This document shows positions 6,519 to 58,447 of a stretch of 64,000 nucleotides of DNA, piece after piece. The notes below the pieces were generated by a model, which worked only from the letters and a program-made list of their open reading frames with translations, was not told where the DNA came from and made no database searches. The stretch comes from Fodinisporobacter ferrooxydans. Lineage in GTDB: Bacteria; Bacillota; Bacilli; Tumebacillales; MYW30-H2. The stretch's first letter is position 1. Every line of letters begins with the position of its first letter. The stretch is taken from positions 983,536-1,047,535 of the forward strand of contig NZ_CP089291.1 in the NCBI RefSeq assembly GCF_022818495.1, read 5' to 3'. Position numbers and translations under genes: made by a program.

Positions 6519-6803
6519 TTACACATGAAATACAATTTCATCTTTCGCCCGATCATAGTCAACCGTTAAATCCGAATCGTTCAAATACCACATATCATCT
6601 GTTTCGATAAAAAAGAGAATGCCGGAAGATGTTGCGCTAATCCCGATTTCGCGGGGATGTTCCTTGGCAATCCCCAATGAGAATCCGGATTGCACCGTGC
6701 CGCACCCACCGTAACGGGCAAAAATGCGGACACCTTCCCCATCTTTCACATGCATTTCATCCCGAAACCAACTGACTGCCGCATCTGTGACTATAAGCTT
6801 CAT
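6519..6803 (-). CDS. HesB/YneR-like iron-sulfur-fold protein
   Basis: 94 aa, the usual size of the YneR branch of the HesB/IscA fold. It starts at ATG 6803 with TGAGGTG 6 nt upstream. MKLIVTDAAVSWFRDEM leads into the beta-rich core with RIFARYGGCGTVQSGFSLG. Only one Cys (GGCG) is present instead of the three of IscA-type cluster carriers, so classical [Fe-S] scaffolding is doubtful. The cellular role of YneR proteins is not established. Its 3' end abuts the half MITE, and it lies downstream of the terminator of the 5S unit, so it needs its own promoter. Confidence 0.78.
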   Translation of the reverse strand: MKLIVTDAAVSWFRDEMHVKDGEGVRIFARYGGCGTVQSGFSLGIAKEHPREIGISATSSGILFFIETDDMWYLNDSDLTVDYDRAKDEIVFHV

Positions 6804-6851: not shown

Positions 6852-6891
6852 AAAAATAAAAAAGCCATCCTGACGACTGCAGAATAGCTTT
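6852..6891 (-). terminator. Terminator of the 5S rRNA unit
   Basis: On the reverse strand AAAGCTATTCTG (6891-6880) pairs with CAGGATGGCTTT (6872-6861), with two mismatches, followed by TTTATTTTT. It lies 8 nt past the 5S 3' end. Confidence 0.85.
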
Positions 6892-6898
6892 GAAAGTG

Positions 6899-7015
6899 CC
6901 TGGCAATGTCCTACTCTCCCAGGAGCCTGCGCTCCAAGTACCATTGGCGCTGGAGGGCTTAACGGTCGTGTTCGGTATGGAAACGAGTGTGTCCCCTCCG
7001 CCATCACCACCAGAC
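6899..7015 (-). rRNA. rrf: 5S ribosomal RNA (orphan copy)
   Basis: About 117 nt on the reverse strand, containing the conserved 5S blocks CCATACCGAACACG, TTAAGC and GAGAGTAGGAC. Helix I forms between GTCTGG (7015-7010) and CCAGGC at the 3' end. There is no 16S, 23S or tRNA sequence upstream, so this is not the tail of a local rRNA operon. It has its own promoter (7023-7051) and terminator (6852-6891), forming a one-gene unit. Confidence 0.93.
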
Positions 7016-7022
7016 AATTGCT

Positions 7023-7051
7023 ATTATAGTACCAGGCTTATCAAATGTCAA
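7023..7051 (-). promoter_or_regulatory. Consensus SigA promoter of the orphan 5S gene
   Basis: TTGACA (7051-7046), exactly 17 bp, then TATAAT (7028-7023) on the reverse strand: perfect in both boxes and in spacing. The predicted start, 7-8 nt downstream of the -10, falls at about 7015, the first base of mature 5S. Confidence 0.9.
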
Positions 7052-7292: not shown

Positions 7293-7336
7293 AAACCGCA
7301 TAAATACTCGTAATATCAAGTATTTATGCGGTTTTT
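7293..7336. terminator. Strong hairpin terminator downstream of helD
   Basis: A perfect 16-bp stem (AAACCGCATAAATACT with its complement) around a 10-nt loop, with GGTTTTTC on the plus strand and GGTTTCTG on the minus strand. Confidence 0.75.
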
Positions 7337-7389
7337 CAAAAGGATTATTATTCAACTTACGCCCCCTTTTTAGTTCAAGAACAGTTTCG

Positions 7390-7494: not shown

Positions 7495-9909
7495 TCAATG
7501 CCTTATGTTTACCTCAAACAAAGACGTATCCAATGCTTGAATGAATGGCGTCCATTCTCCTGTCGTATAAAGCAGAAGCTGGTGCATCGCACGCGTGCAT
7601 GCTGTATAAAAGAGCTTGCGCTCGCTTTCCCGATGATACGTCTGCGAAGAAGCATCATAGATCAGAACAGCGTCAAATTCAACGCCCTTAGCGAGATATG
7701 CGGGAATGACCAACGTTCCTTTTTCGAAGGTGGGCGTCTTCTTCGTAATCAGCCGCAGCGACGGGCATCCCTGAGCGGTCAAGAGCTCGTAAGCGTCGTG
7801 GCTTTCGGCCGCTGTTTTCGTAATGACGGCGATGGAGGCAAAGCCTTCCGCCTGAAGCGCCGCAAGATCCTCTGCTATTTGCGTTGCCAACTGCTCGTTA
7901 CTGCCCACCATTGAAAGAAGCGGCTTCTTCCCGCTTCTTTCGAAGGGCACGATCTCCTTGCCACTCGGCAATAACGACTTTGTGAACTCCACAATCTCTC
8001 GGGTTGACCGATAACTGCGAACAAGGCGAACCAATCTCGTTTCAGACTCGCCGTAAAGCCGAACCAGCGGTGAATCTGAAACGTACAGTTCCGTTGACTG
8101 AGCGAAGATTGCCTGGCCGAAATCGCCGAGTACCGTCATGCGAGCACGGGGAAACAACTTTTTTATAAATTCATATTGAAACATTGAATAATCCTGACCC
8201 TCATCAACGAATATATGCCGTACCTCTGTACTCGTCCGAACGCCCTCAACAAGCTCTTTTAAATACAGGTACGGTGTCGCATCTTCATAGAACAGTTCAA
8301 GTCGACTAAGCTTTTCCTTGGTTTGCTCGCAGATGTCCGGCCAAAGCTCGGGAGCTTCGGTCTCATTCGTCATCTTGCCATAATTGTCCTTATTGCCGAA
8401 CAGCTGCGCGTACAGCCCAACCATATCGATGAACAACATCTGCTTCACGCTTCGCCTCAACGGTTTAAAGTGATCCTTCACGATCATGCGACGCAGTATT
8501 TCTTCTTCCCGCTCGGCATAGTCGAAGTCGCCCTCGTCTCGCCGGCGCTTATTGTGCACTATCTCGTGAACTTCTTCATAGTGTTCGGCAAAGTCAAAGA
8601 CACCCCTCTCTTTGTGTAACTCGCTGAACGCAGCAGCGTATTGCTCCTTTTCAAGATAATAAAGCTCCTCCTGCACCCAGAGCGCCTCCCGCTCCTTGCG
8701 CTCCAGTATAGTCAGCTCCTTCAGCAACCACTCTTGCAGCATTGCAACGCGATTGGCCAAGCGAATGGAAGAATCATAACTGTAAAACTGTGTTTTCATT
8801 TGCTCTACTGTGATCAATTCGCGGTCCCTAAAACAGATGCTGTTGAATCGCATGCCCTCCTGACCCAGCCATTGCGCATAATTTTGGAGAGCTTGAAGGA
8901 ACGCTACAGACGCTTTATATTCAATCCCACTCAGCCGAGCCTCATGCTCTTGCGCTGTCAGCACGTATTCGATCTGATCGAACAGATCTTCTAGACACAA
9001 CGTCGTTCCGATCCAATATTCAAGATATTCTTGAAAGGTCGTCTGCTGCATATTTTCTTCACCAAGCTCGGGAAGGACGGTGGATACATAGCTGTTAAAC
9101 ATCGGATTCGGCGAGAAAAGAACGATTTGGTCAGCCTTGAGCCGCTCTCGGTGCTTGTACAGCAAGTACGCCACCCGCTGCAGTGCCGCAGAGGTCTTCC
9201 CGCTGCCGGCCGCCCCCTGCACAATGAGCATCCGGCTCTTGTCTTCGCGTATAATGGCGTTTTGCTCTTTTTGGATGGTCGCCACGATGCTCTTCATCTG
9301 AGCATCCGCACTCTTACCGAGCACCTGCTGCAGCAATTCGTCGCCGATCGTTAAGTCCGTGTCGAAAATATTGCATAATTGACCCTCATGGATCTGGTAC
9401 TGCCGCTTCAGCTTCATTGTCCCAGTTATGGATCCGGCCGGCGTGTCATATTCGGCTGCTCCCGGGGAATAGTCGTAGTACATGCTCGCAATAGGTGTCC
9501 GCCAGTCATATATCAGAAAACTCAGGCCATCTGTATCTACGAAGGATGATACGCCGATGTAGATCTGTTCGCTGAAGCTCAGACCATTCTCTTGGAAATC
9601 GATGCGCCCAAAGTAAGGTGATAACAGCAGCCGTTTCATGCTTTTCCATTGCTGCATGCGAAGTAGGTAGCTTCGCTCCCGTTCGGATAATAATGCCTCT
9701 TGTTGCTTTATACTGTAGAAAGTCTCTTCAAAATCTTCGTAGGTACTCGTGTTGACCGTAACTTCCTCCCAAAATCGTCTGCGGATGTCCGTCGCCTGAT
9801 CGCGCAGCCCAGCCACCTCCGGATCCAGTTCGACGATTCTCGCTTGAAGCTTTTCCGTTACCAGATCCAGTCTCTGCTGTTCTTGATTCCAATCCTTTGC
9901 GTTTATCAT
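7495..9909 (-). CDS. helD: HelD-type RNA polymerase-associated ATPase (UvrD/Rep fold)
   Basis: About 804 aa from ATG 9909. The frame also opens 16 codons earlier at a TTG, but the AAAGGAG ribosome site lies between the two. An N-terminal coiled coil of about 100 residues, rich in Arg, Glu and Gln, precedes Walker A (GAAGSGKTS, about residues 232-240). A superfamily-1 motor follows, with Walker B-like VDEGQDYS and the late helicase motifs LVRSYRST, KGVEFDAVLIYD and YTACTRAMHQ. HelD binds RNA polymerase and uses ATP to release stalled or DNA-bound enzyme. It stands alone between terminators, and its codon use matches the core genes. Confidence 0.88.
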   Translation of the reverse strand: MINAKDWNQEQQRLDLVTEKLQARIVELDPEVAGLRDQATDIRRRFWEEVTVNTSTYEDFEETFYSIKQQEALLSERERSYLLRMQQWKSMKRLLLSPYFGRIDFQENGLSFSEQIYIGVSSFVDTDGLSFLIYDWRTPIASMYYDYSPGAAEYDTPAGSITGTMKLKRQYQIHEGQLCNIFDTDLTIGDELLQQVLGKSADAQMKSIVATIQKEQNAIIREDKSRMLIVQGAAGSGKTSAALQRVAYLLYKHRERLKADQIVLFSPNPMFNSYVSTVLPELGEENMQQTTFQEYLEYWIGTTLCLEDLFDQIEYVLTAQEHEARLSGIEYKASVAFLQALQNYAQWLGQEGMRFNSICFRDRELITVEQMKTQFYSYDSSIRLANRVAMLQEWLLKELTILERKEREALWVQEELYYLEKEQYAAAFSELHKERGVFDFAEHYEEVHEIVHNKRRRDEGDFDYAEREEEILRRMIVKDHFKPLRRSVKQMLFIDMVGLYAQLFGNKDNYGKMTNETEAPELWPDICEQTKEKLSRLELFYEDATPYLYLKELVEGVRTSTEVRHIFVDEGQDYSMFQYEFIKKLFPRARMTVLGDFGQAIFAQSTELYVSDSPLVRLYGESETRLVRLVRSYRSTREIVEFTKSLLPSGKEIVPFERSGKKPLLSMVGSNEQLATQIAEDLAALQAEGFASIAVITKTAAESHDAYELLTAQGCPSLRLITKKTPTFEKGTLVIPAYLAKGVEFDAVLIYDASSQTYHRESERKLFYTACTRAMHQLLLYTTGEWTPFIQALDTSLFEVNIRH

Positions 9910-10086
9910 TCTCTTGAACACGCTCCTTTCAAAATCCGAAGAAAAAAAGTTTGACAAACAGCATTGTCATATGATACGATTAAAATGTAGATATAATGTT
10001 ATATTTTTGATTTTTTGAATAAATCGCTGGCGATTTTTTAATCTTATCATAGTGCTTTCTTCGCGTGCAATGTTTTATTTATAGTT

Positions 10087-21222: not shown

Positions 21223-21340
21223 TTCTTATCAAGAGAGGTGGAGGGACTGGCCCGTAGAAGCCCGGCAACCGACAGTTATAGAACTTACACTGTAGTGGTG
21301 CCAATTCCAGCAGGACGTTTGGTTCTGAAAGATGAGAGGG
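21223..21340 (+). ncRNA. SAM-I (S-box) riboswitch
   Basis: Contains the S-box blocks in order: CTTATCAAGAGAGGTGGAGG, GACTGGCCC, AAGCCCGGCAACC, GGTGCCAATTCCAGCAG and GATGAGAG, with P1 formed by TCTTATC and GATGAGA. Binding S-adenosylmethionine favours the terminator just downstream and shuts off metY. Confidence 0.95.
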
Positions 21341-29662: not shown

Positions 29663-29700
29663 TCCATTCATACCCATTAAACAAATATTGCACTCAAATT

Positions 29701-29825
29701 CGCTGAATTCCGTGAAGGAAACGGGGGAACCAACGGAGAGAAATTTTCTTGCCGGGGTGAATCCTGTTGAATACAGGTAGGGCGACTCTCACGTCCGAAT
29801 CCGTCAGCTAACTTCGTAAGCGTTT
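29701..29825 (+). ncRNA. c-di-AMP (ydaO/yuaA) riboswitch
   Basis: Conserved ydaO blocks: GGAAACGGGGGAACCAACGG, GGGGTGAATCC, ACAGGTAGGGCGACT, and TCCGAATCCGTCAGCTAAC followed by TTCGTAAGCG, closed by CGCT/AGCG. When c-di-AMP is high the downstream terminator forms and the potassium importer is shut off. Confidence 0.94.
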
Positions 29826-29874
29826 TAGAGAGGAGGAAATTTCATGTGCAAGCATGGCTTGTTTCACCATGCAT

Positions 29875-58149: not shown

Positions 58150-58404
58150 AAATTGCAAACGGTATCGACAGTGAGAAGGAGCAGTAATAAACAAAAGCAG
58201 TCCAGAGAGTTGGCGATTGGTGTAAGTCAATCTGCGTTTCGTTTATGAACTCGCCTTTGAGTTGCAAAAATGAAAAGATTCCCACGGCAATACCCACATG
58301 CTGGAAACCAAGTAATTTTTGCCGTCATCCACGTTACGGAAATGAAGTGAGTGCATCATATGTACTAAGTTGGGTGGTACCGCGGGAATTAGCTCAAGTA
58401 TGCT
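58150..58404 (+). ncRNA. T-box leader, leucine-specific
   Basis: Stem I elements: AGAGAG near 58204, GGTGTAAG distal loop, then GAA-CTC-GC with CTC (Leu) at 58250-58252 as the likely specifier codon. The T-box itself, GTTGGGTGGTACCGCGG, spans about 58369-58385. Uncharged tRNA-Leu would stabilise the antiterminator and let leuS be read. Confidence 0.93.
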
Positions 58405-58447
58405 AACCTCTCGTCCCAAGCAATTGGGATGAGAGGTTATTCTATTT
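58405..58447 (+). terminator. T-box-controlled terminator
   Basis: AACCTCTCGTCCCAA (58405-58419) and TTGGGATGAGAGGTT (58424-58438) pair with one mismatch around GCAA, then ATTCTATTTT. Confidence 0.9.

Follow-up and report, generated by a model that had tools for sequence, protein, structure and literature searches.

Bacterial 5S rRNA is usually co-transcribed in fixed proportion to 16S and 23S rRNA. The locus described here, on the chromosome of Fodinisporobacter ferrooxydans, raises the question of what a 5S rRNA gene does when it lies outside any such transcript. It is contained in a window of 64,000 nucleotides (the whole stretch of DNA that was analysed), which corresponds to positions 983536-1047535 of the 4,856,687 bases of the chromosome. 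An Rfam search of the window places a full-length 5S rRNA gene of 117 nt (RF00001) at positions 6898-7014 on the minus strand, i.e. at 990,433-990,549 of the chromosome. The match covers model positions 1-120 and reaches 94.3 bits, the gathering score being 38, and it falls within the range of the operonic 5S copies of the same genome (89.7-95.2 bits). The mature ends of the gene are set by homology to the Rfam consensus and to the operonic copies. This orphan copy is, in our view, likely to be functional, to constitute a single-gene transcription unit and to add to the 5S supply. The features of the locus are the following:

6519..6803, minus strand: downstream neighbour, small Fe-S_biosyn family protein (HesB/IscA-like), context only
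6861..6891 (read from 6891 to 6861), minus strand: predicted intrinsic terminator, 12-pair stem and 7-nt loop, then TTTATTTTTC
6898..7014, minus strand: 5S rRNA gene (Rfam), 33/34 scored pairs, structure intact
7015..7022, minus strand: AGCAATTG, the eight bases between the -10 box and mature 5S
7023..7051 (read from 7051 to 7023), minus strand: consensus sigma-A promoter TTGACA-N17-TATAAT, 12/12 matches, 17-nt spacer, function deduced from the consensus only
7495..9957, minus strand: upstream neighbour, UvrD-like helicase, HelD-like by reading, context only

Besides the orphan 5S, no other rRNA was found in the 64-kb window by Rfam and no tRNA by ARAGORN. The nearest other rRNA found in the readable genome is a 16S gene at 1,238,731, about 248 kb away, in agreement with the initial annotation of this DNA, according to which no 16S or 23S is nearby. 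Since the window searches show that 16S, 23S and tRNA are absent from its transcription unit, the gene stands alone; it does not follow a 23S in one transcript, as the 5S of an rrn operon does. The terminator stands between the orphan 5S and the downstream Fe-S_biosyn gene. Relatives of this neighbour occur in three of 13 genomes of the order, and no 5S match was reported at their locations. The orphan 5S lies about 237 kb from dnaA (1,227,441) and the origin region, with transcription directed away from it, a distance and an orientation that would suit a gene with high output. A long inverted repeat (CCGCATAAATACT...AGTATTTATGCGG) is located at 7294-7345, in the region that separates the 5S promoter from the helicase gene, and shows a run of T on the plus strand. 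This repeat may act as a terminator, though only weakly for transcription of the minus strand, and some read-through into the 5S may therefore occur. Elsewhere in the window, the plus strand carries a SAM riboswitch (21223-21338), a c-di-AMP riboswitch (29691-29837) and a T-box leader (58162-58421).

The perfect TTGACA-N17-TATAAT promoter reported by the initial annotation is indeed present before the gene. According to shuffling, 0.55 sites with at most one mismatch are expected per whole window, and the promoter of the orphan is exact. When 20,000 random window positions were scored like a 5S start, two reached 12/12, both of which may well be the orphan's own promoter; a chance promoter before the orphan 5S was rejected by this test. 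Furthermore, the regions before the eight operonic 5S genes of the same genome score 7-8/12 and those before 58 5S genes of related genomes 5-8/12, none of which is comparable to the 12/12 of the orphan. These 58 genes belong to seven genomes, four from the same order region (G004, G006, G011 and G013) and three from the class (G014, G016 and G038); the 23S genes in the stretches fetched from relatives were located by BLAST. The promoter is therefore special to the orphan copy. It is a plain housekeeping consensus, and neither a site for an alternative sigma factor nor one for a regulator was identified.

The transcription start had been assigned to the first base of mature 5S, which is more precise than can be proven. 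The eight bases AGCAATTG that follow TATAAT put it, by the usual spacing, at a predicted position of about 7014-7017, i.e. between 0 and approximately 3 nt before the mature 5' end; the G at 7015, a suitable start base, is a likely candidate. It is thus plausible that the orphan transcript would require little 5' processing. On the 3' side, the claim of a terminator stands and only its distance has to be corrected: the predicted stem starts 6 nt past the 3' end of the 5S, and the 8 nt previously given is obtained when the outer A-U pairs are not counted. Promoter, 5S and terminator are hence all found at the sequence level, as expected from a complete one-gene unit. In the predicted fold of the RNA from 7016 to 6852, helix I of the 5S is lengthened by two pairs into the flanks and the terminator forms a separate hairpin. 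Because of this hairpin and of the 6-nt spacer, 3' processing would still be required. The genome contains a gene for RNase M5, detected above the curated cut-off.

Whether the gene is still sound can be judged from the operonic copies. The orphan differs from them at 10-14 of 117 positions, without any indel, and is distinct from every readable one. It forms 33 of the 34 scored consensus pairs, versus 30-31 for the operonic copies. Compared with the commonest type of operonic copy (L003), it shows ten differences, including five at paired positions that all leave standard pairs; two of these turn A-A mismatches into T-A. With ten random substitutions introduced in the operonic sequence, the mean number of pairs falls to 27.9, and 31 or more pairs remain in 3.2 percent of trials and 33 or more in 0.01 percent; this null is a rough guide since it takes the operonic copy as ancestor and the positions as independent. 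A decayed copy or 5S pseudogene was rejected, given the full length, the lack of indels and a pairing at least as good as that of the operonic copies. The initial annotation had named beforehand such decay as what would speak against its proposal, and had suggested as checks a count of 5S copies inside and outside rRNA operons and a comparison of helices. The proposal withstands the test for decay, since the substitutions keep or improve pairing. The count gives eight operonic copies and one orphan in the readable genome.

An intact gene may nevertheless be an unneeded one. The orphan could be a relict, i.e. a 5S copy displaced by rearrangement of an rrn operon or brought by DNA of a foreign lineage, which retains transcription signals and is expressed at a low level or made and then degraded. 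Its isolated position and its 10-14 differences would fit this scenario, as would its identity, about 91 percent to its own operonic copies and 90-91 percent to the 5S of other Bacilli families, i.e. equal similarity to both. Identity to the 5S of most of its own order is 80-84 percent, and a sequence of 117 nt is too short to decide the origin of the copy. There is also a precedent, since the stand-alone 5S of Desulfallas gibsoniae was interpreted as a displaced fragment whose control elements are accidental (PMC7812874). However, the pairing of the orphan is better, not worse, than that of the operonic copies, and a 12/12 promoter that lies exactly at the gene start, and that no related 5S has, is unlikely to have arisen by accident. 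We therefore regard a relict as unlikely.

The direction of the changes was examined against 81 other 5S sequences. The orphan has the commonest base at positions 16, 24, 33 and 63 and a rarer base at positions 29, 34, 39, 70 and 108. Since it holds the commoner Bacilli base at the first four, much of the difference may have arisen in the operonic copies, whose evolution is presumably concerted. The divergence thus appears to be in part change in the operonic copies and in part change in the orphan. At position 70, the less common base of the orphan (A in 14 of the 81 sequences) could matter for protein binding.

Why a functional gene would be kept outside the operons may be related to the state of the operons themselves. 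The genome of strain MYW30-H2 was described as a single contig of 4.86 Mb with twelve 16S genes of 1544 bp, 99.48-100 percent identical, and twelve 5S genes (PMC11123200). We saw twelve 16S loci, eleven of which are complete (1544 nt) and at least 99.48 percent identical. The readable genome contains nine 5S genes, namely eight behind a 23S in rrn operons, plus the orphan. Hence, 8/10 readable operons have a 5S. The two others, located at 354,497-359,746 on the minus strand (L033:3998-9247) and at 1,662,852-1,668,103 on the plus strand (L034:2353-7604), have complete 16S and 23S genes and tRNA genes directly after the 23S; the sequence read around them is free of masked bases. In the former, the 23S is followed by a long tRNA array that includes the gene of RNase P RNA. 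No hidden 5S was found in the 4.0-4.4 kb downstream of these two operons, and none elsewhere in the readable genome is unaccounted for. Three other rrn loci carry N blocks of exactly 2500 or 5000 bases, which look like masked stretches rather than assembly gaps, so that the presence of a 5S can be read there only in part or not at all. Since twelve 5S genes were counted by the authors of the genome and nine are readable, up to three may lie in these blocks, and the total number of 5S genes may match that of 16S genes without any deficit. Besides, the 23S copies of both 5S-less operons and of L040 carry, around position 1496, an insertion of about 88 nt, which is absent from the other copies and is probably an intervening sequence. 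Some rrn operons of two relatives from the class (G016 and G014; L158, L165 and L170) show the order 16S-5S-tRNA-23S.

In the reading that we favour, RNA polymerase with the housekeeping sigma factor would start about 0-3 nt before the mature 5' end and stop at the terminator behind the gene. The short precursor would adopt the 5S fold, followed on the 3' side by the terminator hairpin, and the tail would be removed by RNase M5 or by 3' trimming. The 5S-binding ribosomal proteins would then bind the orphan RNA, which would be assembled into large subunits like any other 5S. Since two readable rrn operons provide 16S and 23S without 5S, the 5S supply is short by gene count, a calculation that holds for the ten readable operons only, and the orphan may top it up. 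Operons without 5S, together with an intact 5S under its own strong promoter, offer a natural case for studying 5S balance when the link by co-transcription breaks. Moreover, the sequence tags of the orphan (for instance positions 29, 34, 70 and 108) would distinguish its share in RNA-seq of purified ribosomes.

Having its own promoter does not imply that the orphan is controlled separately. The regions upstream of 6/11 readable 16S genes carry a TTGACA-17-TANNNT promoter with 10-11/12 matches, so that control of the orphan along with the operons is just as likely as separate control of its supply, which is possible. It is very doubtful that the gene is a separately regulated source of a distinct 5S variant, kept since some rrn operons lost their 5S, which would allow 5S to be tuned independently of 16S and 23S and would give two kinds of ribosomes. 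Also very unlikely is a specialised 5S with regulation of its own (growth phase, stress or sporulation), serving a distinct ribosome population or acting as an extraribosomal RNA: a sequence unlike all readable operonic copies and a promoter of its own would suit it, and it has been suggested that surplus and separate 5S genes point to additional roles (PMC7283268), but the promoter is of the plain housekeeping type, the difference at positions 16, 24, 33 and 63 may be operonic change, and the viability of E. coli lacking free 5S excludes any essential role outside the ribosome in that species (PMC7283268).

Other bacteria are known to have stand-alone 5S genes as well, although such genes are uncommon. 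Unlinked 5S genes were reported earlier in Leptospira and Mycoplasma. Several searches of the open-access literature for further bacterial stand-alone 5S genes returned none, which is no evidence of novelty. When 84,980 species genomes were scanned for a perfect promoter immediately preceding a 5S start, 13 stretches were found, all 13 with a 5S gene there; the scan detects perfect promoters only and the true number is therefore higher. Nine of these stretches are from Clostridium or labelled Caproiciproducens, one is from a Bacillota MAG (5S-tRNA) and three are from Chloroflexi MAGs, with the 5S alone in the stretch read. Since Clostridium, Chloroflexi and D. gibsoniae cases exist, the architecture is not new. 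What sets this genome apart is that a divergent but intact copy, a perfect promoter at the start site and rrn operons without 5S occur together.

The known cases resemble the orphan to various degrees. In D. gibsoniae DSM 7213, the 5S likewise lies outside rrn operons, between protein genes, with its own terminator; however, it is oversized, has kept a 107-bp operonic leader and has its promoters in a neighbouring pseudogene (PMC7812874), whereas the orphan has a normal size and a promoter that abuts the gene. As in the genome studied here, the number of 5S genes of Syntrophomonas wolfei departs from that of 16S and 23S (thirteen versus three), but this reflects a surplus of 5S and not a relocation (PMC7283268). 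The Clostridium units (L076, L078-L081, L083 and L086-L088) share with the orphan a perfect promoter directly before the 5S but are not single-gene units, since one or two tRNAs follow the 5S; in four of them (L079, L080, L081 and L087), the 5S is about 100 nt behind a 23S. Within the same order, 5S genes located in tRNA arrays (L140, L147, L141, L142, L145 and L146) also lack a 23S within 2.5 kb upstream but are embedded behind tRNAs and have no promoter of their own (5-7/12). The Chloroflexi MAGs (L077, L082 and L085), although from a distant phylum, carry TTGACA-TATAAT 8-9 nt before the 5S and, like the orphan locus, lack any further rRNA gene and any complete tRNA gene within the 6.6-8 kb that were read. 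These isolated Chloroflexi 5S genes (L077:768-884, L082:1274-1390 and L085:1310-1426) have in common a conserved promoter that immediately precedes the gene.
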